The notes under the pieces: generated by a model
What the model saw: the letters and a program-made list of their open reading frames with translations, nothing else
What the model was told of the DNA's origin: nothing
Database searches by the model: none
Assembly (NCBI RefSeq): GCF_014196625.1
Contig: NZ_JACIDZ010000001.1
Location: 62,001-126,000 of the forward strand
Reading direction: 5' to 3'
DNA length: 64,000 nucleotides
DNA from: Martelella radicis
GTDB taxonomy: Bacteria > Pseudomonadota > Alphaproteobacteria > Rhizobiales > Rhizobiaceae
Made by a program: the position numbers and the translations under genes
Shown here: positions 49,650-63,219 of the stretch, in pieces
How the letters are laid out: each line of letters begins with the position of its first letter
Numbering within the stretch: the stretch's first letter is position 1

Positions 49650-50105
49650 ATGACCGACGACATGATGAACCTGCGCTCACACCTAGAGAAGATCCGACGC
49701 CGATCTGCTGCGCGAAATGATCGGCTCTGCCGCCGAGAAGCTGATGGCGCGGGAAGTGGGCACGAAGACCGGCGCGGGTTATGGCGAGAAGAACGGCTTC
49801 CGACTTGCCCAGCGCAACGGCTACCGCGATCGAGACTGGGAGACGCGTGCAGGAACCGTCGAGTTGCGCATTCCCAAGTTGCGCACAGGCAGCTATTTTC
49901 CGAGTTTTCTGGAGCCGCGCCGGAAGGCCGAGAAGGCTGTGCCGGCTGTCATTCAGGAGGCTTATATCCAGGGCGTTTCGACCCGATCCGTTGATGATCT
50001 TGCAAAAGCCTTGGGCATGTCAGGCATCTCCAAGAGCCAGGTATCCCGGTTGTGCGAGGAGATCGACGAGAAGGTGAAGGCCTTCATCTGAACCGCCGCC
50101 AGAAG
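49650..50105 (+). pseudogene. Truncated, frameshifted IS256-family transposase
   Basis: It opens [14 protein letters not shown], then loses one base near 49690, so the rest reads in another frame: [80 protein letters not shown] and [19 protein letters not shown]. This is the N-terminal third of an IS256-type (Mutator) transposase. A second 2-base slip after KAF creates a stop, and recognisable sequence ends near 50105. The DDE catalytic region is missing, so the element is dead. It lies about 0.9 kb before the tRNA-Ser integration site. Confidence 0.8.
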
Positions 50106-51033: not shown

Positions 51034-51123
51034 GGAGAGGTGGCCGAGTGGTCGAAGGCGCTCCCCTGCTAAGGGAGTATACCAGTGATGGTATCGAGGG
51101 TTCGAATCCCTTCCTCTCCGCCA
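51034..51123 (+). tRNA. tRNA-Ser, anticodon GCT
   Basis: The acceptor stem GGAGAGG pairs with CCTCTCC, then discriminator G and encoded CCA. The D-arm is TGGCCGAGTGGTCGAAGGCG, the anticodon stem CTCCC/GGGAG encloses CTGCTAA (anticodon GCT), a long class II variable arm follows, and the T-arm is GAGGGTTCGAATCCCTT. Its 3' end is the integration target of the adjoining element. Confidence 0.97.
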
Positions 51124-51125
51124 TT
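51107..51125 (+). repeat. attL core of the integrated element
   Basis: TCCCTTCCTCTCCGCCATT, identical to 63201-63219. It spans the last 17 bases of tRNA-Ser including CCA, plus TT, so insertion restores a full tRNA gene. Confidence 0.92.
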
Positions 51126-51168
51126 TGATTTGAAACTTCCAATTAAATCAAACCCTTGTGGGCAAGAT

Positions 51169-51196
51169 TGTCAAACTAGTGTGTCAGGTTTGACAG
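51169..51196. repeat. Inverted repeat and arm-type site between attL and the integrase gene
   Basis: TGTCAAAC (51169-51176) and GTTTGACA (51188-51195) form a perfect 8-bp inverted repeat with an 11-nt spacer. Its right half lies in CAGGTTTGACAG (51185-51196), which recurs exactly at 63157-63168 near attR. A second inverted repeat, TTTGATTT...AAATCAAA, lies closer to attL (about 51124-51152). These are placed where integrase arm sites or excisionase sites are expected. The right half abuts the integrase stop codon. Confidence 0.6.
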
Positions 51197-52237
51197 TTAT
51201 TCGCTAGCTCTCTTTGTATTGAACGTCATCATCGCCTTTTTCGCCATGTCTCTCCTACTTGCGGCAATGGTGTATCGGGTGACTTCAGACAGCGACTTGT
51301 GCCCGCTGATCGCCATTATCTCATGTGGGCTGCATCCGGCTTCCGCGAGGCGTCGGCAGGTCGCTTTGCGTAGGCCATGCGGCGAAAGCCCGTCAGGCAA
51401 ACCGGCCTCTTTCACCATTTCCCGAAACCAGTTTGTGAAGCCCGCCGGGGTAAAAGGCTTGCCTTGTCCGGTCGTGATGAATGTCAGGTTGTCGCGCGGC
51501 AAGGCGTCGATGATTTCTGCCAGCTGATCATGAACGGGAATGGTAACAAGCTGCCCGGTTTTTTGCTGTGTGATCGACAGCCAGCCGTCTTTGATGTGCT
51601 GGCGCCCCATTCTGACAACATCGCTGCGTCGCTGCCCAGTGAAAAGCAAAAGCGACAAGGCGAGGTGAGCCCGTGTGCCATGGGGGTGCTTCTTGATGAA
51701 CGTGGCAATGTGCTCTTCTTCCCATGTTAGGAAGCCGACACTATTGCGACGGACCTTGCGAACGCCACTTGTCGGGTCATCATTGCGCCAGCCTATATCC
51801 ACCGCGTGGCGCATAAGGACGTGGATCATTCGAAGCATGTTGTTTGCGGCGGCAGGCGTTGCGGCCCGTTCGCTAACAATGCGCTGAACATGTTTTCGCT
51901 GAAGGTGGGCAACACGTTTGTCGCCATGTTCAACTCGAAAGCGTTCGATGATACCCCGGTAGGTGGCTTTTGTGGAATCGCTTAATGCTGTGAAATCTGA
52001 AGAGCGATAGAAACTAACAACAAGCGCTGAAACCGTGCCAGGCGTTGTTTTGCCTTGCGCTATTTCCGCCGGTTCGCCCGTTGCTGCTGCCTCATAGGCT
52101 TTCATGAATTCCGGTGTCCACGGCAATCCCGGAAGCGGCGTTCGTTTTAAGCCGGGTTTGCGAAAATACCAGCGGGTTTTGCCATGACGATCGACAAACC
52201 CTTGGCAATACTTCGGAGGTTTTCGGAGTTGTTTCAT
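51197..52237 (-). CDS. Tyrosine recombinase (integrase)
   Basis: 346 residues from ATG 52237. An N-terminal arm-binding segment (CQGFVDRHGKTRWYFRKPG), a core-binding domain (about 70-160) and a catalytic domain are present. The catalytic set is complete: Arg203 in TGQRRSDVV, Lys226, His287 and Arg290 in SPHGLRKATCRR, His313 in SGHKSLSEV and nucleophile Tyr322 in RYTIAASR. It adjoins attL and follows the AlpA-like gene with one base between stop and start, so the two are coupled. A longer frame to 52303 lacks a better start. Confidence 0.93.
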   Translation of the reverse strand: MKQLRKPPKYCQGFVDRHGKTRWYFRKPGLKRTPLPGLPWTPEFMKAYEAAATGEPAEIAQGKTTPGTVSALVVSFYRSSDFTALSDSTKATYRGIIERFRVEHGDKRVAHLQRKHVQRIVSERAATPAAANNMLRMIHVLMRHAVDIGWRNDDPTSGVRKVRRNSVGFLTWEEEHIATFIKKHPHGTRAHLALSLLLFTGQRRSDVVRMGRQHIKDGWLSITQQKTGQLVTIPVHDQLAEIIDALPRDNLTFITTGQGKPFTPAGFTNWFREMVKEAGLPDGLSPHGLRKATCRRLAEAGCSPHEIMAISGHKSLSEVTRYTIAASRRDMAKKAMMTFNTKRASE

Positions 52238-52238
52238 T

Positions 52239-52493
52239 TCAATCCCAATCGTTGTTTTCGGGGATTGAATCATCGTCTTCAGAAGGCAAAGCATCAAGTG
52301 CACAATCTAGCGCCCGGATGTCCCAGACTGTTCGGGCGTATATTCTCTTTGGTTTAGGGACCAGCTTGTCCCGCATCATTTTGTCGAAGGTTGCAGGGCT
52401 AACCCCACAATAGGCCGCCGCCTCAGCACGCGACAACATCCGGGCACAAGGTGCCGGAATAGCGCGCTGTTGTGCTGAGGCGGTGGCGGTCAT
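52239..52493 (-). CDS. AlpA-like helix-turn-helix protein (excisionase/regulator)
   Basis: 84 residues. A compact HTH_17-type domain (ARMLSRAEAAAYCGVSPATF then DKMMRDKLVPKPKRI and RTVWDIRALDCALDAL) matches AlpA and related small excisionase or activator proteins of phage satellites. It directly precedes the integrase gene. In PICIs of Gram-negative bacteria AlpA controls int and satellite induction; here that is inferred from family and position. Confidence 0.75.
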   Translation of the reverse strand: MTATASAQQRAIPAPCARMLSRAEAAAYCGVSPATFDKMMRDKLVPKPKRIYARTVWDIRALDCALDALPSEDDDSIPENNDWD

Positions 52494-52497
52494 TGGT

Positions 52498-52761
52498 TCA
52501 AGCCTTCACCTTGTCGGCAACAGGCATGATATCGGCGGCGACCATGGTTGCATCGCCTTCGGTCACAGAACCGAACGAATTGCCAGCCTTTTCCTTGGCC
52601 TTCGCTTCGGCGGCGGTGATTTCGCCCTTGGTGGCGTTGCGGGCCGAGTTCATCGACAGCAACTGTTTTGCAAGTGCCGGCGTTGCGTCAAAGACCGACT
52701 TCCGGTCGATGGTGGTGTCATTCGGGAGAATGATCTTTTTGAGAGCGTACATTTTCGCCAT
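52498..52761 (-). CDS. Small phage-type protein of unknown function
   Basis: 87 residues, MAKMYALKKIILPNDTTIDR at the start, then a Lys/Ala/Glu-rich helix (ITAAEAKAKEKAGNSFGS). It lies 15 bp after the DUF2190 gene as the last gene of the head module and 4 bp before the AlpA-like gene. I do not recognise the family; a minor head or completion protein is possible. Confidence 0.6.
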   Translation of the reverse strand: MAKMYALKKIILPNDTTIDRKSVFDATPALAKQLLSMNSARNATKGEITAAEAKAKEKAGNSFGSVTEGDATMVAADIMPVADKVKA

Positions 52762-52776
52762 TGAGAGAATCCTTTC

Positions 52777-53106
52777 TTAGAAGCCGGAGAGCCGGACGTT
52801 GACGGTGGCGGTCGAAGCGGCGGCAGCAGCAACAGCAACGCCGATCTTCGTATTGTCGGTCGCCGTCGAGGTTGCGAGCGAGGTGTCGGAGTCGAAGTAG
52901 ACGGGATCGCCCACAGCGAACGCATTGGCGCCCACCTTCGGAACGTCGAAGACACCAGTCGTTCGAACATCGACAGGATTGCCGGTGACAGCATCGCCAA
53001 GGGCAACGCCGATGATTTCATTTTCGATGACGACATCGCCGGAAAGATAGTCGGCGCCGGCCGGAATGGTGAGCGTGTCGCCTGCCTGCACATAGTTGGT
53101 AGCCAT
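52777..53106 (-). CDS. DUF2190 protein (likely capsid decoration/cement)
   Basis: 109 residues, almost entirely beta-strand: MATNYVQAGDTLTIPAGADY, GDVVIENEIIGVALGDAVTG, VDVRTTGVFDVPKVGANAFA, VGDPVYFDSDTSLATST. DUF2190 proteins lie beside major capsid genes in many tailed phages and are thought to stabilise heads. It starts 3 bp after the joining-protein stop. Confidence 0.8.
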   Translation of the reverse strand: MATNYVQAGDTLTIPAGADYLSGDVVIENEIIGVALGDAVTGNPVDVRTTGVFDVPKVGANAFAVGDPVYFDSDTSLATSTATDNTKIGVAVAAAAASTATVNVRLSGF

Positions 53107-53109
53107 GTT

Positions 53110-53325
53110 TCAGAGTCCTTTTGAGCTGTTGAATTTGATGGTTTTGGAGGGTTTGCGGGTGGCGGCTGCAATCTCAGATTCCAATGCCGCCAAAGCCCGC
53201 CCGATTTCTGCCTCTGACCGATACGTGACACGCTCGCCGTTCTGATCGACGAATGTCTGGACCCCGGAAAACCGGGTTTCCAGAAGCTTGTCACGAAAGG
53301 TCAGAAGGTCCGCGAGCGATGCCAT
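53110..53325 (-). CDS. Phage head-tail joining protein (gpW-like)
   Basis: 71 residues from ATG 53325: MASLADLLTFRDKLLETRFS, VQTFVDQNGERVTYRSEAEI and GRALAALESEIAAATRK. Length, the two helices and the VTYRS hairpin match small gpW-type joining proteins. These plug the portal after packaging and accept the tail. It lies 2 bp from the capsid fusion gene. Retaining a joining protein without tail genes fits an element that docks a helper's tail. Confidence 0.72.
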   Translation of the reverse strand: MASLADLLTFRDKLLETRFSGVQTFVDQNGERVTYRSEAEIGRALAALESEIAAATRKPSKTIKFNSSKGL

Positions 53326-53327
53326 GA

Positions 53328-55121
53328 TCAAGCGCCCGTCGATCGGTACGCGCCGCGCCAATCCAGCCAGCCGCAGCCGAAGTCGAGGAAAGCCCGGTAT
53401 TTCAAGCCAAGCGATTCCCACGCTTCCTGGCGCTGGATCTGCACACCCTGAGCGCTTGCAAGGTAGCCATACTGGATCGATGGCACCGAAGCCGGATCGG
53501 CCATGACGAACCACGCGTCGTCTTCGATACGGGGCTCGACAACCAGCGACAGCTTACCGGCGAAAGCGTTCACGTCGTCAGCCGTTGCGGCGTAAATCGA
53601 AGCGAGGAGTTTTTCGCCCGCGGTTTCGAGTTCCGGCCCGACCACCAGATAACGAGGCTTGACGGCGATGATCGTCTTGCCGTCGAGTCCCTTCACCGTG
53701 CGAAGGTGCTGGCGTGCATCCGACAGAGCATTTTCCGACAGCGCGACGGCAACGGTGTTATTCCGGCTTGCATCGAAAACCGGCGTTTCGTCGGAAAGGT
53801 CCGGATTGGCGGTCAGAAGTGCGACCAGTTCTTCGGCTTCCGTCTGGGCTGCTGCTTGGCCCATTGCCGAAGTCATGTCGCCAAGGAGTCCAAGGTCGTC
53901 GTCAATGATCAGCTTGCGGCTGACGTTGATCGCACGCCCGAACGTCTTCAGGGCCATGGACTCGCCGGACTCGGCACGGGACGTGTGCTTGAACTCGCCG
54001 TGTTCCGTCATCTCTTCGAGACGGCCCATTTCGCCAAGGCGGATGGCGGTCGATTTCTTGAAGTTCGAAAGCGTACGCTGGCGAGCCAGTGCCTTCAGCG
54101 GGCTTTCTGCGGCCTGATACGCCTGAGCGGCGACCTTGCCCATGGCATTGGAAACCACGAGGGGGAAGTCAGACGTGCCTACGGTCGAACGCTGCAGAAT
54201 TTCGTCGGCGGTCATGCCGCGAACAGAGATGCCAGAACGTGCAAGCGACTCCTTGGCATGATCGACGAAAGACATGCCGACATATTCGCGGCTCGCTTCC
54301 GGCAGATCACCGCCCGTCATGCGGAAAGCGAGCGCATCGGCGGCGCGCGTCTGGATTTCGACAGGGTTATCACGCTCGCGAGTGACGCGAATGCGCGGTG
54401 CCTGGCGCTTCATCATTTCGGCGCGCGCAGCTTCTCGAATTGCCTCTTCGTCGGCTTCGACATCGAGACCTTCGGCCCAGTCTTCCGACAGCCCACAGGC
54501 AGATCGGATATTTTCCACGAATTCTTCGCGGATTTCTTCAGTTTCGAATGGCATGGAAAGACTCCTTTGGATTGTCGCATTCGGGTCGGCGGGGATCGGG
54601 GTCAGGGAAACTTCGAGGATGCGCCAGCGGGTGGCGGTTTTGGTCCGGTTGCCTTCGGCGTCAGTGCCTTCGCGCCACGACAGAACTTGATAACCGGCAG
54701 ACACATGTTTGAGGGTGCCGTCGCGCACGCGGGCCGCTAGCGGCGCGATGTCTTCGGCAAGGCCGAGCCGAAGCGATGCAGAGACACTGTTCCCGTTGAC
54801 GGCGAAATCATACGCCCGCCCTACCGTCTCGCGGGCAGATTTCTTGTGATCTGTGAGAAGCGGAACGTCAGCACCACGCGCCAGTTCCAGCCCAGCCGGA
54901 TCCAGAACTTCCAGGTACATGCCTTTGCGATCACGGCGAGCGACGGGCGCATCGGTGGCAACGATCGCACTGAAGATCGTCGCCCCGTCTTCTTCCGAAG
55001 GTGCAAACGCCTCGACAGTGCGCGCGAGGAATTCGCCGGACGTGGTGTCGGGAAGTTTTCGCACCTTCGGAGGCGAAACAATGTATGTGGCAAGTGCAGG
55101 ATCACCGACAAGACGGGTCAT
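53328..55121 (-). CDS. Prohead protease/major capsid protein fusion
   Basis: 597 residues. The first 190 or so are an HK97-type U35 protease: catalytic His92 in LLTDHKKSARETVGRAYDF and Ser141 in KHVSAGYQVLSW. After a charged, scaffold-like segment (about 195-260, FETEEIREEFVENIRSACGL) comes the capsid fold: STVGTSDFPLVVSNAMGKVA, LKTFGRAINVSRKLIIDDDL, AVKPRYLVVGPELETAGEKL, DPASVPSIQYGYLASAQGVQ and a C-terminal GLKYRAFLDFGCGWLDWRG. Such fusions are known in some siphophages and would self-cleave to give protease, scaffold and shell. It overlaps the portal stop by 4 bp. Confidence 0.88.
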   Translation of the reverse strand: MTRLVGDPALATYIVSPPKVRKLPDTTSGEFLARTVEAFAPSEEDGATIFSAIVATDAPVARRDRKGMYLEVLDPAGLELARGADVPLLTDHKKSARETVGRAYDFAVNGNSVSASLRLGLAEDIAPLAARVRDGTLKHVSAGYQVLSWREGTDAEGNRTKTATRWRILEVSLTPIPADPNATIQRSLSMPFETEEIREEFVENIRSACGLSEDWAEGLDVEADEEAIREAARAEMMKRQAPRIRVTRERDNPVEIQTRAADALAFRMTGGDLPEASREYVGMSFVDHAKESLARSGISVRGMTADEILQRSTVGTSDFPLVVSNAMGKVAAQAYQAAESPLKALARQRTLSNFKKSTAIRLGEMGRLEEMTEHGEFKHTSRAESGESMALKTFGRAINVSRKLIIDDDLGLLGDMTSAMGQAAAQTEAEELVALLTANPDLSDETPVFDASRNNTVAVALSENALSDARQHLRTVKGLDGKTIIAVKPRYLVVGPELETAGEKLLASIYAATADDVNAFAGKLSLVVEPRIEDDAWFVMADPASVPSIQYGYLASAQGVQIQRQEAWESLGLKYRAFLDFGCGWLDWRGAYRSTGA

Positions 55122-56488
55122 TTGATCACCTTTTGTTCAACTTTCTGTTGACCGGGAGCGCCGCCGAAAGACAGGCCCAGTTCAGTTTCGCGCTGACGAT
55201 CTGTGGCAATTTCCCGATCGACTTGGGTGATGTCGTAGCCCAGTTGGGCGACGGCCTGTCGGCGGCTGATGAGCCCCATGTCCAGCATCTCACGCGTGGC
55301 TTTGGCGTCGGATTCCGGGTCCACCCATTGGGCTTTAGGGAAATGCCATTCAACATCGGCTTCAGGATCAGCGGTGTTCGATCCGCGCAAAGACTCGAGA
55401 AGCTGCCAACGCGCCCAAATTCGATTTAGAGCGGGCACCAGAATCGTGTGCTGCAGGGCTTCGATATGCGCACGGAATTGCACAAGGGCGGTGCGGGCAG
55501 ATGAATAGTTCACACCGCGCATGTCGCCCGAAAGCAGGAATTCCGGTATCTGAAGCCCGGTAGCGATCTGTCGCAAGGAAACCGCAACAAGTTCAACGGC
55601 GCTTTGCATCTGTTGCGGGCTCGAAAACTTCACGTCGTACCCGGCCGGCAGAACGCGCATAACACCGGGCTCCAACGAAACGTCGAGCGGGTCGCCGCCG
55701 TCACCAAACGGATTCGAACCGGTTGCGTTCTGATCGATGAGAAAGCCGCAAAGCATCGATTGCACCTTGGCGTTCACGGCCAACGCGTCCTGAAGCTGTG
55801 AAAGCTCATTCAGCGGCAGAATGACCGGCGCAAACCAGCTTAGGCCGCGTGTTTGCCCTGCCCCCTGTCGGCGGAAGATGTGAAGAACGTCGGATGCTTC
55901 TACGCGGACCGGCGCGCGGAACGCTTGGAAGGCGTCGGTCGGTCGCGCCGGGCGGAAATGGTATGCGACAGGTTCGTCGTCGGAATCGTACTCGATCCCT
56001 GCCGCGATATAGCGCCCGTTACCAAGCTCGCTTGTGAGCGCTTCGTCCAACTGTTCAGCAGGCACATGCTGCAAGCGAAGTTCACCTTCGGCATTGGCTC
56101 GCATGATCACGAGGGATTCGCCATCGGTCGCAAGCGCGTCGGCAACCTCGCCCAGAAGAGCGGGAAAACCGGAATTTTGTGCCCATTCGCTGAAATTTGC
56201 GTCATGGGACTCGCGGACGGACTCGTCATTCTCCGACGACGCGGCGGAAACCCCGAAACCCACCAGCGCCGTTTTCAGGATCTCAACCGCATTGCTTGCA
56301 GTGGGATCGTTGAATCGAAGATGGCGAGCCCGCCCGCGAACTTGCGCGGCACCGGCCAAAACTTCCGCGCCGGTCGTGCCGAATTGAGGCGTATTGTTCC
56401 AGCGCTTGCCGGACGCCCCTTCAAGCATGCGGACATTCGAAGGCTTTTCGGCGCGATTCCGAGAAATGTCGAAGCCGAATAAACGCAT
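55118..56488 (-). CDS. Lambda-type phage portal protein
   Basis: 456 residues. HLRFNDPTASNAVEILKTAL, ADALATDGESLVIMRANAEG, RVEASDVLHIFRRQGAGQTR, GLSWFAPVILPLNELSQLQD and GLQIPEFLLSGDMRGVNYSS are portal motifs. The dodecameric portal is the DNA gate of the head and the docking site for terminase. Its ATG overlaps the preceding stop by one base (TAATG), so it is coupled to the MerR-like gene. Confidence 0.88.
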   Translation of the reverse strand: MRLFGFDISRNRAEKPSNVRMLEGASGKRWNNTPQFGTTGAEVLAGAAQVRGRARHLRFNDPTASNAVEILKTALVGFGVSAASSENDESVRESHDANFSEWAQNSGFPALLGEVADALATDGESLVIMRANAEGELRLQHVPAEQLDEALTSELGNGRYIAAGIEYDSDDEPVAYHFRPARPTDAFQAFRAPVRVEASDVLHIFRRQGAGQTRGLSWFAPVILPLNELSQLQDALAVNAKVQSMLCGFLIDQNATGSNPFGDGGDPLDVSLEPGVMRVLPAGYDVKFSSPQQMQSAVELVAVSLRQIATGLQIPEFLLSGDMRGVNYSSARTALVQFRAHIEALQHTILVPALNRIWARWQLLESLRGSNTADPEADVEWHFPKAQWVDPESDAKATREMLDMGLISRRQAVAQLGYDITQVDREIATDRQRETELGLSFGGAPGQQKVEQKVIK

Positions 56489-57027
56489 TAGTCGACCTCA
56501 TTCAGGGAAGAAAGCAGCTCGACAATGATTGATGAGGCGGGCAACGAGAACCGTGCGATTGCAGGGGCGTTGCTCAAACCGGCTAGCCGAAGCGAATTTT
56601 CAACACGTTCGCTCTTGGGCTGATCTAGCGACCAACTAGCTTCGACACAGTATCTATAATCAGCCCCCAGAACGAGCGAGACAGAGAATTCCTCACCGTT
56701 CTGAACGCGTTCTACGGCTTCGGCCGAATGAGTCACACCCAACCATCCGCCAGTCACTTTGCGGCGACGGGTACCACTCTCGGCAAGCCAACGCGCCAGC
56801 GGATCAATAGCCGTGCGATCTAGGCCGAATTCATTGGCGATCTGTACCAGGCGAATGGCCGAGAGCGCGCCTTCGTCATACATAAAGACACGGCCTCTTT
56901 GATCAGATGGCGGCAAATGGTTCCGTTGGACTAGGTTGCGAAGCGCTTTTTCGTATCGGGCAATATCCTTTGCAGGAACGTTGTCCAGGCTGGCAAATAC
57001 AGGGATGATTTCAGCAAGGGTGAACAT
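56488..57027 (-). CDS. MerR-like winged-helix protein, candidate element regulator
   Basis: 179 residues. The first 85 resemble a MerR-type winged helix: MFTLAEIIPVFASLDNVPAK, DIARYEKALRN, LPPSDQRGRVFMYDEGALSA and IRLVQIANEFGLDRTAIDPL. The rest (WLGVTHSAEAVERVQNGEEF ...) is unrecognised and may sense or bind a partner. It precedes and overlaps the portal gene, while inverted TTGAC/GTCAA repeats lie just upstream at 57067-57078. The MerR resemblance is by eye and moderate; a structural head protein is the alternative. Confidence 0.5.
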   Translation of the reverse strand: MFTLAEIIPVFASLDNVPAKDIARYEKALRNLVQRNHLPPSDQRGRVFMYDEGALSAIRLVQIANEFGLDRTAIDPLARWLAESGTRRRKVTGGWLGVTHSAEAVERVQNGEEFSVSLVLGADYRYCVEASWSLDQPKSERVENSLRLAGLSNAPAIARFSLPASSIIVELLSSLNEVD

Positions 57028-57066
57028 CGATGACTCCTTCGTCTAACTCGTTATCTCATTTGTGAG

Positions 57067-57078
57067 TTGACGAGTCAA
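57067..57078. promoter_or_regulatory. Short inverted repeat upstream of the MerR-like gene
   Basis: TTGAC-GA-GTCAA, a perfect 5-bp inverted repeat 40 bp before the MerR-like start, within a region that also holds CTCA-TTTG-TGAG. It shares the TTGAC half-site with the repeats at 57410 and near both att sites, suggesting one regulator. Confidence 0.4.
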
Positions 57079-57198
57079 ACGAAATCTGCCAATAAGGGAT
57101 TGTCCCAAAGTTCGGCGGTCTCCTTCGCCGAAACCGTGGTCGGGGGCGGTTCTTTCCTCTTCTTCAACCGCCCCCGGCAACCTCTCAGAGGTATAAGG

Positions 57199-57411
57199 AT
57201 GAAAACGCCAACACCCCCAGATTTCATTCCCGAAAAGAAGCGCCGACAGTGGCGCGCGATCTGGCGCGACGCGCGGACGTTCTGGGCTGACAAGGAAACC
57301 GAGTCCGAAAGTTTCTACCTGGCGTGCGAAGTGATTGCCCCCGAAAAAACACGGGAAAAGCTGGGGCCAAAAGAACATTTTCGACTTCCCGAAACACATT
57401 CGGTTGAATAG
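57199..57411 (+). CDS. Small rightward protein of unknown function
   Basis: 70 residues from ATG 57199 with AGAGGTATAAGG upstream: MKTPTPPDFIPEKKRRQWRA, IWRDARTFWADKETESESFY, LACEVIAPEKTREKLGPKEH. It is basic and rich in Trp, with no membrane segment. It reads against the leftward packaging and head genes and sits in the central control region, so an accessory or helper-interference role is possible. Family not recognised. Confidence 0.5.
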   Translation: MKTPTPPDFIPEKKRRQWRAIWRDARTFWADKETESESFYLACEVIAPEKTREKLGPKEHFRLPETHSVE

Positions 57412-57440
57412 TCAACTAATTGTATTTGTTGACTTATAAT
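57410..57440 (+). promoter_or_regulatory. Candidate operator and -10 element in the control region
   Basis: AGTCAAC (57410-57416) and GTTGACT (57428-57434) form a perfect 7-bp inverted repeat with an 11-nt spacer, the same geometry as TGTCAAAC-N11-GTTTGACA near attL. TATAAT (57435-57440) abuts the right arm, so a bound protein would block or contact RNA polymerase at this rightward promoter. Confidence 0.5.
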
Positions 57441-57720
57441 ATGTCGACGTTATGCCTTCTCAACAACGAAAGGCAGCACGATGAATGTTGTATGGGTTGG
57501 CAGGAAAACAGACAGCGGGCAACCAGTTGTTGTCCAACAAGGTAAAGGCTTCAGACCTTATTGGTTGAATCGGAACTGCTTGACTAGCCAAAGAGTAGTT
57601 TCCATGAATCTACAAATTGCTGCAAAACTTGCACGTGAAATGCAACCAAATCCCTTGTCACGGTCGCGGTTGCATGGGAACCTTTGCAACCAAACAACTC
57701 CCTACTTAAAGGAAAGCAAA
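57412..57720. other. AT-richer leader region inside the element
   Basis: 309 bp with the promoter/operator at its left end. A frame from ATG 57481 runs through it into the gene at 57721 (MNVVWVGRKTDSGQPVVVQQ ...), but it has no convincing ribosome site or family resemblance. I treat the part before 57721 as mostly leader. An overlapping small protein cannot be excluded. Confidence 0.35.
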
Positions 57721-57942
57721 ATGGAAGAATTTACGGTTGGTGACCTCAGGCGTCATCTTAAGGTTTTCAGTGACGATACCGTTCTGGAAATTGCAGGAGG
57801 GCTCACGTTCTATCGACTCAAGCTCGTTGACGATAAGGTTGTATTCTTGGAATTTAATGAAGCGGAAGCCGAGTTGAGCCCTAAAGATCGAAAAAATATT
57901 CAAGTTGCATTCATGCGTATACCCGACATGGATGCCAGCTAA
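57721..57942 (+). CDS. Small rightward acidic protein of unknown function
   Basis: 73 residues from ATG 57721, preceded by AAAGGAAAGC: MEEFTVGDLRRHLKVFSDDT, VLEIAGGLTFYRLKLVDDKV, VFLEFNEAEAELSPKDRKNI. It looks like a compact alpha/beta fold. Base composition is AT-richer than in the flanking genes. Its stop overlaps by 4 bp the stop of the leftward 62-residue gene. Family not recognised; an accessory satellite function is possible. Confidence 0.55.
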   Translation: MEEFTVGDLRRHLKVFSDDTVLEIAGGLTFYRLKLVDDKVVFLEFNEAEAELSPKDRKNIQVAFMRIPDMDAS

Positions 57943-58127
57943 CCTAAAGTGATGCCCATCGGCCCACTGCTGTTGTGCTTTTTTAGTTGACCGATCTTGA
58001 CGGTTTTTTTGACCTTGCCGCCACCGCGCAAACACACCGCCTCACCATTCAGAATGGATGCCACCCGATACACATATGGGTCGTCTTTCAGCATGACCTC
58101 ATCGCCAACTTTTATTTCTGCACTCAT
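57939..58127 (-). CDS. Small protein coupled to the terminase gene
   Basis: 62 residues from ATG 58127: MSAEIKVGDEVMLKDDPYVY, RVASILNGEAVCLRGGGKVK, KTVKIGQLKKHNSSGPMGI. A short beta-barrel (SH3/KOW-like) is suggested by KVGDEVMLKDDPYVYRVASI. The start overlaps the large-terminase stop (ATGA), so it is translated with it. A packaging or head-completion accessory is likely from position only. Confidence 0.6.
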   Translation of the reverse strand: MSAEIKVGDEVMLKDDPYVYRVASILNGEAVCLRGGGKVKKTVKIGQLKKHNSSGPMGITLG

Positions 58128-59887
58128 CGGCCCAACCAACTCGATCTGATTACACGTTCCGGTTTCTTCACTAAAGCTTGAGAAGACAACTCTTCAGCAC
58201 GGCGGTCAAGGTTTAGGTTGATGAGAGACCTTGCGGCCCATGCGTAGACCGTCGCGTCAAGCGTTTCTGCCCGCTTGCCTTTCACTCGCTCGAAGCGCGG
58301 TTGCGGCACACCACGCACGTAACGCATGACACGGCGTTCACTTGTCAGTTGCTCAAAGAAGATGGGTTCCAAGTCCTGCGAGAAACGGACGCCTTCTTTG
58401 CGCTGTATGCGATTGAAGAGTTGAGCCTTAACTGCATCGACGCCAACAAGCCAAACCTGCTGACCGCGAGTTTTTGATTTAGCGAGAAACTGGCGCGAAA
58501 AGCCCGGAACACCTTTTGTACTCACGACACGCCTTCCGAAGCGGCTGCGCGTGAAACCGTGGACAATATCAGTATGGCCACCATCCCCGGAGTCTACCGC
58601 ACAGGCATCTATGCCGATGGTGCCGCCGTTGGCGTGCTGCCAGCGTTCCCTCAAGAGGTCGTCCAGTTCCAGCCAAACAGCGTCACCATCAACAGGTCCA
58701 TAGAATACACGGTGATTGAATACGAAAATTTCCGTCGCGCTATGCCCCATAACGACGCACTCGAGTCTATCGTCCTGCACATCGACGCCAACGGTAAGCA
58801 GCAGCACATCAGAAGGGAAAACTTCGAGCGAAAAGTGTTCGCGCCGACCGGTCAATTCGTGTTCGTCTAGGTCTTCGCCTTCGGTTTTCCACGGTTCGCC
58901 CAACACGAGGTTGACGAAAGACTGCAGCCCTTCAGGGGTTTTCTTTGCTTCCAGAAATTCCGCGGCCAGGGCCGACCAGCGGGCGTTAAAGTGGGGGCTG
59001 ACAAGTGAATTGATACGAAAGCCAGCACGAGTCTTCACTTCAGGGCGCGTTGCCCGCCAGCGACCGTTTGCGACCATCTCGACCTTATGCTTTTCCGGGA
59101 CAAGGCATCCGCAACAGGGACAACACCACTCGACGCCTTTGGCGAGGTTCTCAGGATCGAATCGAATGTCTTTCCAGAGAATTTCCGCAAAACCGTCACA
59201 CTCCACACACCGCACCTCGAACACCCGTTGGTCCGAATTCGAATATAGTGTTGTGACAGGCCCGAAATCGAAAATCGGCGTGCCGCCAAAAATCAGTTTC
59301 CGGTCGCGATAAGTCTGGGTGCGCATCTTCAGAAGATCGAGCACCGAACCTTCATCTGTCGGCGGATACGCGTCAATTTCGTCGGCAATCGCCACCTTGC
59401 CCAACTTGCGGCGAAATGCGCGTGGGCTGGAAGCTGACAGGAATTCAAGAGTACCGCCGGGATAGATTCGCCGCATCATCGTCGATCGGCCGGATTCGTC
59501 GGCATCGTCCGAAATCAGACCGCGGAGAGTGGGGCTAGCCTCGAAAAGCGCTTCGGTGTCCACGGAGAAGGCGCGGCTGTCATCACTCGTCGGCTGGGTG
59601 ACCAGAAGAGGTGCCGGATTAACTGCGACACAATGACCGATGTATCCGCTAAGCAGCGCCGTGAAGCCGATGCGGGCTGATTTCTGGATTACTATTTCAG
59701 AAACGTTTGGATCGTCCAGGGCGTCACATATGCCTCTCTGATAGGAGTACAATTTCATACGTCCGGGTGTTGCCGAAGCAGTCGACGGCAGGAACACATT
59801 CTCTTCAACCCAGTTCGCGAGCGGCATATCGGGCGGCGGGCGAAGGACTGCGAGTGCGTTAGCGCGGATCTGCTCAATCTTTCCCAT
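58124..59887 (-). CDS. Terminase large subunit (GpA type)
   Basis: 587 residues. An ATPase domain with Walker A-like QKSARIGFTALLSG, Walker B VAIADEIDAYPP and coupling segment KLIFGGTPIFDFGPVTTLYS. A zinc-ribbon-like insertion carries VRCVECDGF and WCCPCCGCL. The nuclease domain has acidic residues in LTVGVDVQDDRLE, GIDACAVDSGDGGHT and a C-terminal ETLDATVYAWAARSL. GpA-type terminases cut cos sites and drive packaging. It overlaps the small subunit by 14 bp. Confidence 0.92.
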   Translation of the reverse strand: MGKIEQIRANALAVLRPPPDMPLANWVEENVFLPSTASATPGRMKLYSYQRGICDALDDPNVSEIVIQKSARIGFTALLSGYIGHCVAVNPAPLLVTQPTSDDSRAFSVDTEALFEASPTLRGLISDDADESGRSTMMRRIYPGGTLEFLSASSPRAFRRKLGKVAIADEIDAYPPTDEGSVLDLLKMRTQTYRDRKLIFGGTPIFDFGPVTTLYSNSDQRVFEVRCVECDGFAEILWKDIRFDPENLAKGVEWCCPCCGCLVPEKHKVEMVANGRWRATRPEVKTRAGFRINSLVSPHFNARWSALAAEFLEAKKTPEGLQSFVNLVLGEPWKTEGEDLDEHELTGRREHFSLEVFPSDVLLLTVGVDVQDDRLECVVMGHSATEIFVFNHRVFYGPVDGDAVWLELDDLLRERWQHANGGTIGIDACAVDSGDGGHTDIVHGFTRSRFGRRVVSTKGVPGFSRQFLAKSKTRGQQVWLVGVDAVKAQLFNRIQRKEGVRFSQDLEPIFFEQLTSERRVMRYVRGVPQPRFERVKGKRAETLDATVYAWAARSLINLNLDRRAEELSSQALVKKPERVIRSSWLGR

Positions 59888-60404
59888 CGGCGAGTCCTTC
59901 CAGACCGTTTTTAATTTCTGAGTTCAGGTCCGAAATATCGTTCGGCGTCAGGTGTGGGTGATCGGCGCCAAAACGTGACGGCACGGCAAGCATTGCTGCC
60001 CGAACATCTCGCAAAACTGCCTGCCATTCCCGCGTGACGGCCTCGACTTCGATCAGTTCGCCACGTAATGCGGCATTCTTCGTTTCCTCACGTTCTGCCT
60101 GAGCTTTCATCAGCCTGAGTTTTTCCGCCCGTAGATCGTCGCCACCGGCTGAAGGGCGACCAGCGCGTTCAGCGTGAAGACGTAATCGGGCAAGATAATT
60201 GTGGAGCGACTTCCAAAAGTCGTAACGGCCCGGTCGGGTTCGAATGCAAATACCGTCGCGAGCGAGCGTGCGAAGGCGGGCCGACGAAATTGCGAGGGCA
60301 GAGCACATTTCGCTTTCCGTCATTTCTGCCGTGATGGGACCAGATGTTTTTCCGTTATCTGGGATCTGGGGCACAAGGTCTCCAAACAGTTCATCATCGC
60401 TCAT
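59874..60404 (-). CDS. Terminase small subunit (Nu1-like)
   Basis: 176 residues. The N-terminal MerR/Nu1-type DNA-binding helix region is TAEMTESEMCSALAISSARL and RTLARDGICIRTRPGRYDFW. A long coiled helix (LRAEKLRLMKAQAEREETKN AALRGELIEVEAV) and a C-terminal segment for large-subunit contact follow. It recognises the packaging site. It is the first gene of the packaging operon and overlaps the large subunit. Confidence 0.8.
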   Translation of the reverse strand: MSDDELFGDLVPQIPDNGKTSGPITAEMTESEMCSALAISSARLRTLARDGICIRTRPGRYDFWKSLHNYLARLRLHAERAGRPSAGGDDLRAEKLRLMKAQAEREETKNAALRGELIEVEAVTREWQAVLRDVRAAMLAVPSRFGADHPHLTPNDISDLNSEIKNGLEGLADGKD

Positions 60405-60693
60405 CGGGAAATCCCTTTCGAAAAAAGTCTGAAAAGATCGACAAGCCGCGGCTCAGAGTGCCCCGCGATGCCGCCCCGGCGGGAAGGACCCAGATGCCCA
60501 GATGTTGGACCAGACGTAATGCTATCCGGGTTCGTGCTTCCATGCGTGAGACAGCTGAAGTTCTCTAAGTCTTTGATTTTGTTACTTTGAGACAGGGTGA
60601 GACAGGGCTGCCGTATAAGCGCCTTACACACGCACGCACGCGTGAAAAGATTGTACGGAAAGGGTGTCTCGCCCTGTCTCACATCAAATGATT
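60405..60693. other. Repeat-bearing gap between primase and small terminase genes
   Basis: 289 bp without a gene, between two leftward genes. It carries most of the TGAGACAGG repeats described for 60547-60733 and an alternating ACACACGCACGCACGCG stretch near 60627-60642. A packaging (cos) site or replication origin would be expected in such a place; neither is proved. Confidence 0.45.
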
Positions 60694-60733
60694 TCAATGG
60701 GTTAGGCATTTTTCATCTTTCATGCCTGTCTCA
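60547..60733. repeat. TGAGACAGG repeat cluster, candidate origin or packaging site
   Basis: Five copies of TGAGACAG(G): plus orientation at 60547-60554 (eight bases), 60588-60596 and 60598-60606; minus orientation at 60673-60681 and 60725-60733, the last inside the primase gene end. GTGAGACAGGGC (60597-60608) and GCCCTGTCTCAC (60671-60682) make a perfect 12-bp inverted repeat with 62 nt between. Iteron-like sites beside a primase-helicase gene are the usual form of satellite origins. Confidence 0.55.
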
Positions 60734-63078
60734 ACTGTCGATGCGCCCAAATCGTCGAAATCATCAAATTGTTCGGGCTGAGGTGCTATGCGGATACCCG
60801 AATAACCACGAGCGCGCTTTGAACCTATGTTCTTTGCTGTCAGGAAGCCCCTCTCACGCATCCGCTGCGGGAAGTCGCTAAACCTGTTCCCCGGCTCCTC
60901 GCCATTCTGGCGCGCGTACCATGACCACGAGTCAAAGAGGTCTTCAGTCGTTGCGGCATAACGTGGTCCCGTTTCGCAGCGATCCACGAGCCAGTTGCTG
61001 AACAGGTCCATTTCGGCGAAATACTCATTGGTGGTTTCCACCATGACCGCAGGGCGGCAAAGCCCATGCTTCTGCCAGTCGAGGCAACCTTGAATCGCCC
61101 ACGACAAAATCCCGGCGAACTCTGCTTCAAGAGAGGCTTTCAAGCCGTGATCTGCATGAGCGGGTTTGTGGTCGAACGGCATGACGTTGAAGCGCCGCTT
61201 TATCGCGCCATCCACATTCGCGAAGGCAGGCTTATTGTTCCCAATTACAACCAGTTTCAATTGCGGTTTGAACTCGAAATCATCCTGCCGCATGAAACGC
61301 GCTGTCATCACATCTCCACCCGTGAGCTGCTTTATCCTGTTTTCAGCCCATGCGCGGCCTGCCTCCGTTTCGGAAGCATAGGCCATACGGGCACCATGCA
61401 GGCGGGCGATTTCTGTGGAATGCCGTCCATGCTTTTGTGCTGTGATTGTCTCGGGATCGACCGCCGTCGCGTAGTCGCCCAACAGAGCGGCAATAGTGTT
61501 TATGGTGGTTGATTTTCCGCTGCCACCTATTCCATGCACGAAAAGTAGGGCTTCCTCGCGTGTGTCGCCGGTCAGGCTGTAGCCGAACCATTGTTGCAAA
61601 AAGCGGATTGCATCAGCATCCCCGCCGGTAGCGAATTCGAGGAATGCCAGCCAACGTGGGCAGTGTTTGGCGGGGTCAAAAGACTCAGATGGGATCGGGG
61701 CGGCGGCGGTGATTTTGGTGATCATGTCAGTTTGCCGCGCCTCGCGAAGCTCACCTGTGCGAAGATCGACCGTGCCACCCGGTGTGCCCAGCAACCAATG
61801 GTCAGAATCCCACGCATCAGCGGTGACGGCAAACGCACGGTCGGCTTGCGCAAACCTCTCGACAGCCGCAGATGTTGCTGCTTTTGCCAGTGCTTTCGCG
61901 GCGGAAGACTTCACGTCAGCTGCAGCGCGAGCGCGGCAGATTTCGCGCGCCCAGTTGAAGGCGAGTTTTGTTTCTTCTTTACGCCAATGTGAGCCGGTCC
62001 AGACATGCCAGCGCCCGGACGAATGGCAGAAGCGCAATCGATCGGCATGTGCCGCGGCGAAGGCGCGAGCGACTCCGTCTTCCGTCATCGGAAAACCGTC
62101 GATATCCTCGCCCATATCTTCGAATTCGTCTTCAAGGTCTATATCACCGCGCGTACGCTCCCATGCCCGCTTAACTTGCCGCATGTCGTTCGCCCAGTCC
62201 GCAAGGTCTGGATCTTCTGCTAAGTCCGAACGGAATTGTTCAAAGGTCTGACCGGCGCGCCGGCATTCACCTGCAAGCCGGAATGCGCGGCCTGAACGGC
62301 TTTCATCTCGCTTTTCTTTGTCGATGTCTGCCTCACCTTTGAAGCGCGGTCCAGCTTCCTCAATCAGCCAATTCAGCGTTGTTTTCGTGATCAAGGCCAA
62401 CGTGTCGGCATGACCGGGTAAGGCCTGTTCGGTCACGGTGAAATATCGGTTTCCCAGATGCAGGGCGATTTCATGGTGTGAGCCGCGCGACCATGACTTT
62501 CCATGCTTTGTGCCCATAGCTTTCTGCAGGGCTTCCATATCGGCCGCCGCATATCGGAAGAAAACCTTCAGGCCAGTCTGCGAAGGGCTGACTTCGGTGT
62601 AGGAGCCGAACCGCTCGACAATTTCACTCGCCCAGCCAGTCAGGTCGCCGGTTGCCGGGTCGCGGCAGGAATCGAGATCAATGCCGCCCAGGCGGTTCTT
62701 CTTGTCGCCTCCCAGCATGAGGCCCACGCCGCCCTTCCGTCCGCCGGAAAGCAAGTCGAGTGCTAAGGTTTCGGCAGCAGCGCGAGAAAGCCAGGTTGCG
62801 GGGTCGTTGGCCCGTGCCATTTGTCGAGGCGTGGAATAGGGCACCTTAGTCGGCTTGCTATTGCGCTCTTCTTCCCGCCAAGCTACCCAGCGCGCCAGCT
62901 TCGCCAGCGGTGCAATCGCGGCTGGACCTTTGGGCGCTTTATGGTATTGTGTTTCTAGAAGTTGTTCAGCTTCTGTATGCTTTTCAAAGCCGTTGCGGGG
63001 TCCAGCCGCGACGGCTTTATTCGTTTCAGGGTCTGACGCCCCCATCAGATCGCCGAAGATGTTGTCTAGATTTTCCAT
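60694..63078 (-). CDS. Prim-Pol/P4-type primase-helicase
   Basis: 794 residues from ATG 63078, which has GAGGACTCAC upstream; the longer frame to 63105 lacks a ribosome site. The N-terminal archaeo-eukaryotic primase domain shows LGGIDLDSCRDPATG and SPSQTGLKVFFRY. A central D5_N-like domain (HWLLGTPGGTVDLRTGELRE, CPRWLAFLEFATGGDADAIR) precedes a superfamily 3 helicase with Walker A FVHGIGGSGKSTTINTIAAL, then RMAYASETEAGRAW and NNKPAFANVDGAIKRRF. Such proteins start replication of P4 and PICI satellites at their own origin. Confidence 0.88.
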   Translation of the reverse strand: MENLDNIFGDLMGASDPETNKAVAAGPRNGFEKHTEAEQLLETQYHKAPKGPAAIAPLAKLARWVAWREEERNSKPTKVPYSTPRQMARANDPATWLSRAAAETLALDLLSGGRKGGVGLMLGGDKKNRLGGIDLDSCRDPATGDLTGWASEIVERFGSYTEVSPSQTGLKVFFRYAAADMEALQKAMGTKHGKSWSRGSHHEIALHLGNRYFTVTEQALPGHADTLALITKTTLNWLIEEAGPRFKGEADIDKEKRDESRSGRAFRLAGECRRAGQTFEQFRSDLAEDPDLADWANDMRQVKRAWERTRGDIDLEDEFEDMGEDIDGFPMTEDGVARAFAAAHADRLRFCHSSGRWHVWTGSHWRKEETKLAFNWAREICRARAAADVKSSAAKALAKAATSAAVERFAQADRAFAVTADAWDSDHWLLGTPGGTVDLRTGELREARQTDMITKITAAAPIPSESFDPAKHCPRWLAFLEFATGGDADAIRFLQQWFGYSLTGDTREEALLFVHGIGGSGKSTTINTIAALLGDYATAVDPETITAQKHGRHSTEIARLHGARMAYASETEAGRAWAENRIKQLTGGDVMTARFMRQDDFEFKPQLKLVVIGNNKPAFANVDGAIKRRFNVMPFDHKPAHADHGLKASLEAEFAGILSWAIQGCLDWQKHGLCRPAVMVETTNEYFAEMDLFSNWLVDRCETGPRYAATTEDLFDSWSWYARQNGEEPGNRFSDFPQRMRERGFLTAKNIGSKRARGYSGIRIAPQPEQFDDFDDLGASTVETGMKDEKCLTH

Positions 63079-63105
63079 TTGTGAGTCCTCTTTTGAGGCC
63101 CACAA

Positions 63106-63168
63106 AGGTTTGACGATTCATATGGAAAGCTAAAGAAAACAATGGAGTCAAAATCTCAGGTTTGACAG
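63106..63168. repeat. GTTTGAC repeats between primase gene and attR
   Basis: AGGTTTGAC occurs at 63106-63114, about 28 bp before the primase start, and again at 63158-63166 inside CAGGTTTGACAG (63157-63168), identical to the site beside attL. GTCAAA (63147-63152) with TTTGAC (63161-63166) adds an inverted pair with 8-nt spacing. The region likely combines a primase promoter operator with an integrase arm site. Confidence 0.55.
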
Positions 63169-63200
63169 CGCAACTATTTGATTTCACTTGCATATGTCAC

Positions 63201-63219
63201 TCCCTTCCTCTCCGCCATT
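63201..63219 (+). repeat. attR core of the integrated element
   Basis: A 19-bp copy of the tRNA-Ser 3' end, identical to attL at 51107-51125. No tRNA body precedes it, so it is the displaced target end that marks the right boundary. Confidence 0.92.

Follow-up and report, generated by a model that had tools for sequence, protein, structure and literature searches.

The 12.1-kb element described here is very probably an integrated, tailless, capsid-forming phage satellite that belongs to a long-lived alphaproteobacterial lineage and borrows the tails of siphophages. It lies within a 64,000-nucleotide stretch of the Martelella radicis genome, hereafter the window, to which all coordinates refer. 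The original prediction of a 12.1-kb element with exact att repeats was borne out, since 12,113 bp are seated in a tRNA-Ser(GCT) gene and flanked by an exact 19-bp direct repeat, TCCCTTCCTCTCCGCCATT, whose two copies (51107-51125 and 63201-63219) are spaced 12,094 bp apart. The left copy forms the 3' end of the tRNA gene (51034-51123). The tRNA-Ser segment was present in 13/13 genomes of the genus, and a PfkB gene adjoins it in several congeners. Synteny with congeners covers the left flank (PfkB, tRNA-Ser) but not the right, so comparison of the element's flanks with congener loci recovered no clean empty site. A Mutator-family transposase fragment (49717-50091) separates the PfkB and tRNA-Ser genes of the window, two genes that are close together in several congeners. 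To the right of attR, a stretch at 63401-63454 matches many congener places at 80-100% identity and is a dispersed repeat of the genus.

All genes of the element are on the minus strand except for one small gene (57721-57942) on the opposite strand. Read from right to left in the window, they begin with a primase-helicase, a noncoding stretch, a Nu1-like small terminase subunit (terS), a gpA-type large subunit (terL) and a 66-aa protein. The opposite-strand gene, a 179-aa regulator, a lambda-family portal, a protease-capsid fusion and an Ad1/gpW-type joining protein follow, and the series ends with a DUF2190 cement protein, an 87-aa protein, an AlpA-like protein and the integrase. Stop and start codons of the portal, capsid, joining-protein and terminase genes overlap or almost touch. 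The features are:

51034-51123, plus strand: tRNA-Ser(GCT), the integration site (ARAGORN)
51107-51125, strand not given: attL, 19-bp exact repeat
51197-52237, minus strand: tyrosine integrase (PF00589, 6e-23; ORF open to 52303, probable start ATG 52237)
52239-52493, minus strand: AlpA-like excisionase/regulator, HTH (phrog_25900, 3e-12; phrog_66, 2e-7; Pfam HTH_17 below cut-off)
52498-52761, minus strand: 87-aa protein (no PHROG match; relatives in 7/111 loci)
52777-53106, minus strand: capsid cement protein, DUF2190 (PF09956, 1e-25; phrog_122)
53110-53325, minus strand: head completion/joining protein Ad1, probably gpW-type (phrog_2545, 4e-9 on a longer ORF; start ATG 53325)
53328-55121, minus strand: prohead protease fused to major capsid protein (PF25209, 2e-46; PF10124, 6e-14; PF04586, 5e-6; phrog_4523, 1e-137)
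55118-56488, minus strand: portal protein, lambda family (PF05136, 5e-70; PDB portals 8gtd, 8vhx)
56488-57027, minus strand: MerR-type regulator with CvkR-like fold, 179 aa, first gene of the head operon
57721-57942, plus strand: small gene, 73 aa, candidate switch partner (open frame, AGGAAAG upstream; weak phrog_21180, 5e-5)
57939-58139, minus strand: 66-aa protein (no Pfam match; one similar ORF, in L046)
58124-59887, minus strand: terminase large subunit, lambda gpA type (PF05876, 9e-59; PF20454, 7e-75)
59874-60404, minus strand: terminase small subunit, Nu1-like (phrog_57, 8e-29; PF07471 (Nu1), 4e-5, below cut-off)
60462-60491, minus strand: putative cos core, between primase and terS (sole window match, conserved in relatives)
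60694-63105, minus strand: primase-helicase, D5_N, DUF5906 (PF08706, 5e-28; PF19263, 1e-10; phrog_6088, 1e-111)
63201-63219, strand not given: attR, 19-bp exact repeat

Pfam and PHROG matches confirmed the genes named at the outset (integrase, AlpA-like protein, primase-helicase, both terminases, portal, protease/capsid, joining protein and DUF2190 protein). The accompanying claim that tail, lysis and CI-like genes are absent also held, since the element ORFs scanned against Pfam and PHROGs matched none of these families. In the S78 protease fused to the capsid protein, H92 and S141 are invariant in 14 relatives. A PDB search with the capsid profile returned gpT-like capsids only, and a PDB sequence search with the terminase returned no match. 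The regulator at 56488-57027 has the MerR winged-helix fold. The joining protein is probably of the gpW type because phages carry a gene named Ad1 or gpW-like between terL and portal; it gave no match to Pfam gpW. It is the single connector recognised in the element, and the 87-aa and 66-aa proteins lack an assignment. An ORF at 60401-60709, which has no relatives and overlies the putative cos site, was dropped as a gene.

Relatives were collected in three scans: the element capsid against IMG/VR (11 loci), an alignment of 14 capsids against 84,980 species genomes (55 loci), and the same alignment against IMG/VR again, of which the best 80 of 173 relatives were used. The scans gave 135 loci, 19 of them duplicates, and hence 116 distinct loci; L033, the window element's own IMG/VR copy, is counted among these. 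Among the named hosts from the species-genome scan, Rhodobacterales predominate (Celeribacter, Rhodobacter, Gemmobacter, Paracoccus, Sulfitobacter and others), and Hyphomicrobiales are also represented (Aureimonas, Corticibacterium, Acuticoccus and Rhizobiales bacterium 65-79). Within the window's own family, 40/199 genomes gave a match, mostly distant, and four close places (at least 42%) occurred in three other genomes. Two genomes each carry two different members, namely Corticibacterium sp. UT-5YL-CI-8 (L074 and L090) and Rhodovulum bhavnagarense (L059 and L062).

The head and packaging genes of the family are under purifying selection. Median Nei-Gojobori omega among close pairs was 0.138 for the capsid, 0.091 for the portal and 0.078 for terL (25 pairs each), 0.094 for the integrase (24 pairs), 0.108 for terS (17) and 0.205 for the primase (8); one pair is counted twice, L058/L060 and L127/L128 being the same genomes. 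Values for gpW (0.23) and cement (0.19) come from ORFs in partial overlap with other genes. In 11/111 loci the frame of the capsid, portal or terL gene is split, whether in reality or through assembly, and the integrase is split in L039 and L111. Head genes are thus far from disrupted in most copies, and the earlier contention that intact genes speak against random decay of a prophage is supported by the low omega and the few split frames.

A conserved noncoding site precedes terS. The motif GGGTCCYT occurred in 41 of 53 distinct primase-to-terS intervals, compared with a mean of 1.48 and a maximum of 5 in dinucleotide shuffles, and is followed ~24 nt on by GCGGGG and a conserved block. Ten of the other 12 intervals contain a near version at the right spacing, and those of L041 and L156 contain none. 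Within the 64 kb of the window the extended pattern matches once, at 60462-60491, against 0.07 matches expected. Because of its position and conservation, this site is probably the cos of the gpA-type terminases. Of the parts of a lambda-type packaging module, gpA is clear, Nu1 is recognised by PHROG (below the Pfam cut-off), and the putative cos is assigned from conservation and place. The phages Pben1 (Paracoccus) and MinM1 (Synechococcus) also have the 8-mer ahead of terS; it is missing from RcMamaDuck and LPPA33.

A candidate helper resides in the same genome (G000:C1, ~652-685 kb; L168, L169), a lambda-like prophage with genes for portal, capsid, decoration protein, gpW, tail terminator, tape measure, minor tail proteins, fibre J and integrase. 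The same cos-like core precedes its terS, 77 bp ahead (L169:9552-9582), making cross-packaging conceivable. Satellite heads might then mainly interfere with or resize helper heads, with satellite DNA partly packaged by the helper terminase into mixed particles, and elements with the same capsid that lack a terminase or portal do exist. We consider this very unlikely, however, since the element's own terminase, portal and cos-like site are kept under strong purifying selection, its TerS has no significant similarity to that of the prophage, and the large subunits are 25% identical. Across 21 other satellite-bearing genomes, gpA matches and gpJ-type tail proteins revealed no consistent helper: a second gpA-terminase match was found in 9, some of these being second satellites, and in 12 there was none, while a gpJ-type tail protein was matched in 9. 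The prototype cf-PICI is described as likewise not mobilised by resident prophages (PMC11389934).

An alternative origin is a decaying prophage that has lost its tail and lysis genes. All genes of the element descend from tailed-phage modules, a few members have split genes, and the order up to the cement gene is that of Rhodobacter phage RcMamaDuck. This and similar siphophages share the succession terS-terL-gpW-portal-protease/capsid-next gene, with a capsid ~32% identical. However, they continue with head-tail attachment, tail tube, tape-measure and fibre genes where satellites continue with alpA and/or integrase, and their gpW-type gene lies between terL and portal, whereas that of the satellites is behind the capsid gene. 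Among seven tailed phages with the same capsid type that were opened, five have annotated neck/tail genes after capsid and cement; in the other two, MinM1 and LPPA33, the genes at that place are annotated hypothetical. In 98 of the 116 distinct loci (including the best 80 of 173 from the third scan), an integrase is found directly behind the cement gene, with its start no more than 1 kb away in 87. A head operon running into alpA-int, originally thought unusual, is therefore the norm in this satellite family. A closer look at 15 more loci showed the integrase behind the cement gene in 11 (8 of 10 tested directly, L060 and L089 through 95-99% identity to tested loci, and L111 as a split gene). 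In L040 and L078 the integrase is upstream of the primase, L037 is circular with RepL, and in L106 none was recognised on the last 1.1 kb of its contig. Nine of the 116 loci end before the integrase region is visible, and five, without a cement gene, are of another kind. The seven core genes (primase, terS, terL, portal, capsid, joining protein and cement) are complete in 56 of the 111 cement-bearing loci, many of the rest being cut by contig ends.

A contiguous tail module was not found in the relatives. In the 15 closely examined loci, the ORFs that come after the cement gene, 58 in all, matched no tail family, and neither did 91 representatives of the non-core ORFs of 31 delimited elements. 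A function is known for neither 16 of 22 PHROG families nor most of the 91 non-core ORFs, so that a wholly unfamiliar tail gene may be among them; one HTH-like ORF of L048 gave a below-cut-off match to a tail-terminator model (E 0.048). The 31 delimited elements, i.e., the window element and 30 relatives with a repeat pair bracketing the gene set, measure 11,483-13,379 bp (median 12,245, sd 423); L074 was left out of this set, its 13-bp repeat pair being off the tRNA. In the capsid tree, 53 satellite rows together with L185 form one clade (SH-aLRT 100), and all six tailed-phage rows lie outside it. L185 is itself satellite-like, with terS, terL, portal, capsid, joining protein and integrase. 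The tree came from a quick search without bootstraps, with 77 of 153 rows kept after an 80% identity filter. Rows L092, L093 and L097, classed as satellites by collection only, fall outside the clade, the satellite label needs 5 changes (at least 3 forced), and two rows, L185 and L190, are very long. Since independent decay would not halt at the same gene every time, the shared endpoint, an intact-looking integrase beside the cement gene, argues against a decaying prophage. So do the near-constant size, the low omega, the single capsid clade and the existence of one member as a closed circle, and we regard decay as very unlikely.

The satellite reading is also consistent with the insertion sites. 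The repeat pair has the same arrangement in the 30 relatives, with a tRNA at the repeat in 27 (none was found for L044, L072 and L136). Repeats of 14-16 bp alone may be chance, but their position at tRNA ends is not. The targets are tRNAs for Ser (10), Arg, Met and Phe (3 each), Trp and Glu (2 each), and Tyr, Thr, Pro and Gly (1 each), with one SeC tRNA prediction, which overlaps a partial copy in L068. Just inside both att sites of L065, L085, L125 and L136 lies the 13-mer AAAAGTGTCCCAC, possibly an integrase arm site. A domesticated, host-serving particle such as the head cluster of a gene transfer agent, which alphaproteobacterial head genes without tail genes could suggest, is highly implausible for a mobile element with att repeats, integrase, primase and at least 11 kinds of tRNA target among 27 relatives, and one that is missing, at a threshold of 30% identity, from 9 of 12 congeners, the other three showing 30-31% matches only.

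The contig L037/L048 of Falsigemmobacter faecalis (NZ_RRAZ01000057.1, 1-12094) is 12,094 bp long with 45 identical bases at both ends, and is therefore a circle of ~12,049 bp. It has head and packaging genes, no tail gene among its genes, and, in place of alpA and integrase, a RepL-family ORF (PF05732, above cut-off) and an HTH ORF. The 12-kb unit can therefore be a whole replicon, and L048 is a satellite-plasmid outside Vibrio. The stretch from terL to portal is variable among relatives. In Wenxinia (L091) it encodes a protein matching the PADLOC models Orf5/HEC-06 and SspE, and a protein encoded there in L122 matched a TIR effector. In L251, an element on a Paracoccus plasmid, it holds a cytosine methyltransferase together with a further methyltransferase and an HNH endonuclease; PADLOC gave no match for 8 of 10 slot proteins scanned. 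Two smaller plasmids encode protease-capsid proteins, 32% identical to the L048 capsid in Rhodovastum plasmid RHOAph (L250; NZ_OW485609.1, 10,690 bp) and 24% identical in a Synechococcus elongatus plasmid (L252; NZ_CP130604.1, 7,842 bp). Both have replication genes and no annotated terminase, portal or tail, and are possible capsid-only satellites. In L176 (G135), L187 (G014) and L190 (G123), a distant capsid of the same kind stands beside an integrase, and a tape-measure protein (PF10145) is also encoded, to which L187 adds a tail assembly chaperone; no gpA terminase or lambda-type portal was recognised in these three, and the combination is unexplained.

The element had been taken for a cf-PICI-like satellite. 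Like the cf-PICIs as they are described (prototype EcCIEDL933), it is a small, site-integrated element with integrase, primase and AlpA (the last as an HTH/PHROG match only), and has its own capsid, head protease, portal, and small and large terminase and no tail genes; the tail module of tailed phages (Caudoviricetes) is missing from it. The cf-PICIs are expected to use helper tails (PMC10690885, PMC10803314, PMC11389934, PMC13230959). Published descriptions give them capsid, protease, portal, connectors, both terminases and an HNH endonuclease (PMC10690885), the last being part of their packaging module (PMC10690885, PMC13230959), and place their capsids in three clades (PMC11389934), with PF05065 as the family used for 900 published cf-PICI capsids (PMC13230959). 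The capsid of our element, compared by description, is instead PF25209/gpT-like: PF25209, PF10124 and PF04586 matched it and PF05065 did not at E up to 0.1. Its terminase is of the gpA/Nu1 type, and no HNH match was found in the element ORFs or the 91 non-core ORFs of relatives (L251 has one, beside its cytosine methyltransferase). One connector, probably gpW-type, was recognised where the published cf-PICI gene list has several, and it is ~12 kb long in Alphaproteobacteria, whereas cf-PICIs are reported to average ~14 kb in mainly enteric and Gram-positive hosts (PMC10803314). Because capsid family, terminase type, HNH and hosts differ while the way of life is common, we judge it to be cf-PICI-like in its working and not a member, representing a separate alphaproteobacterial lineage convergent with the cf-PICIs. 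The part of the earlier reading that stands is thus a capsid-forming, tailless satellite borrowing tails, and strict membership does not, given the PF25209 capsid and the lack of an HNH match.

Other known systems resemble the family in part. The Vibrio cf-PISP/PISP satellite-plasmids are described as likewise tailless, capsid-encoding and episomal, to which L048 is analogous, and PISP carries a MerR-like regulator, as does our element (PMC13230959). They differ in their PF05065 or PF03864 capsids and parA/repA, compared with the gpT-like capsid and RepL of L048, and are said in that account to be absent outside Vibrio (PMC13230959). The Streptomyces phage satellites MulchRoom and MiniFlayer have their own head and packaging genes, like our element, but are described as lacking a primase and as having virulent helpers, direct terminal repeats and, according to the authors, unrelated sequence (PMC10690885). 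The MulchRoom particle has a small head on a helper-length tail (PMC10690885). Among the matches listed in the open full-text literature there was no such alphaproteobacterial family, and the supplements of the cf-PICI and SatelliteFinder papers may contain some members of it. On balance, we lean towards a separate, ancient alphaproteobacterial satellite radiation that did not arise from known cf-PICIs, with a lambda-type gpA/Nu1/cos module and a protease-capsid fusion in ~12 kb, a terL-portal slot often holding anti-phage genes, a RepL plasmid offshoot, and necks and tails taken from siphophages, perhaps from co-resident phages sharing the cos core.

From this gene content we infer a life cycle in which the integrase and AlpA-like protein would move the element into and out of the tRNA gene, and the primase would copy the excised 12-kb circle. 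The element's own Nu1/gpA terminase would recognise the cos-like site that the element carries immediately ahead of terS, and would fill a head, presumably small, built from portal, protease-capsid and cement proteins, which the gpW-type protein would close. A co-infecting or induced siphophage would supply the missing neck and tail proteins as well as cell lysis, and the hybrid particle would bring the satellite's 12 kb into another cell. The MerR-type regulator, which lies ahead of the portal gene and beside the opposite-strand gene, probably controls the head operon.

If this is true, satellites that build their own heads and borrow tails evolved once more beyond the known cf-PICI lineages, among alphaproteobacteria of sea and soil and from a different capsid and terminase family. 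The family would then serve as an independent natural trial of which steps are indispensable (the gpW-type connector alone seems to be kept), of how a 12-kb genome sets head size, and of which tail interfaces are shareable. Searches with models based on PF05065 and HNH could also miss a large class of satellites.
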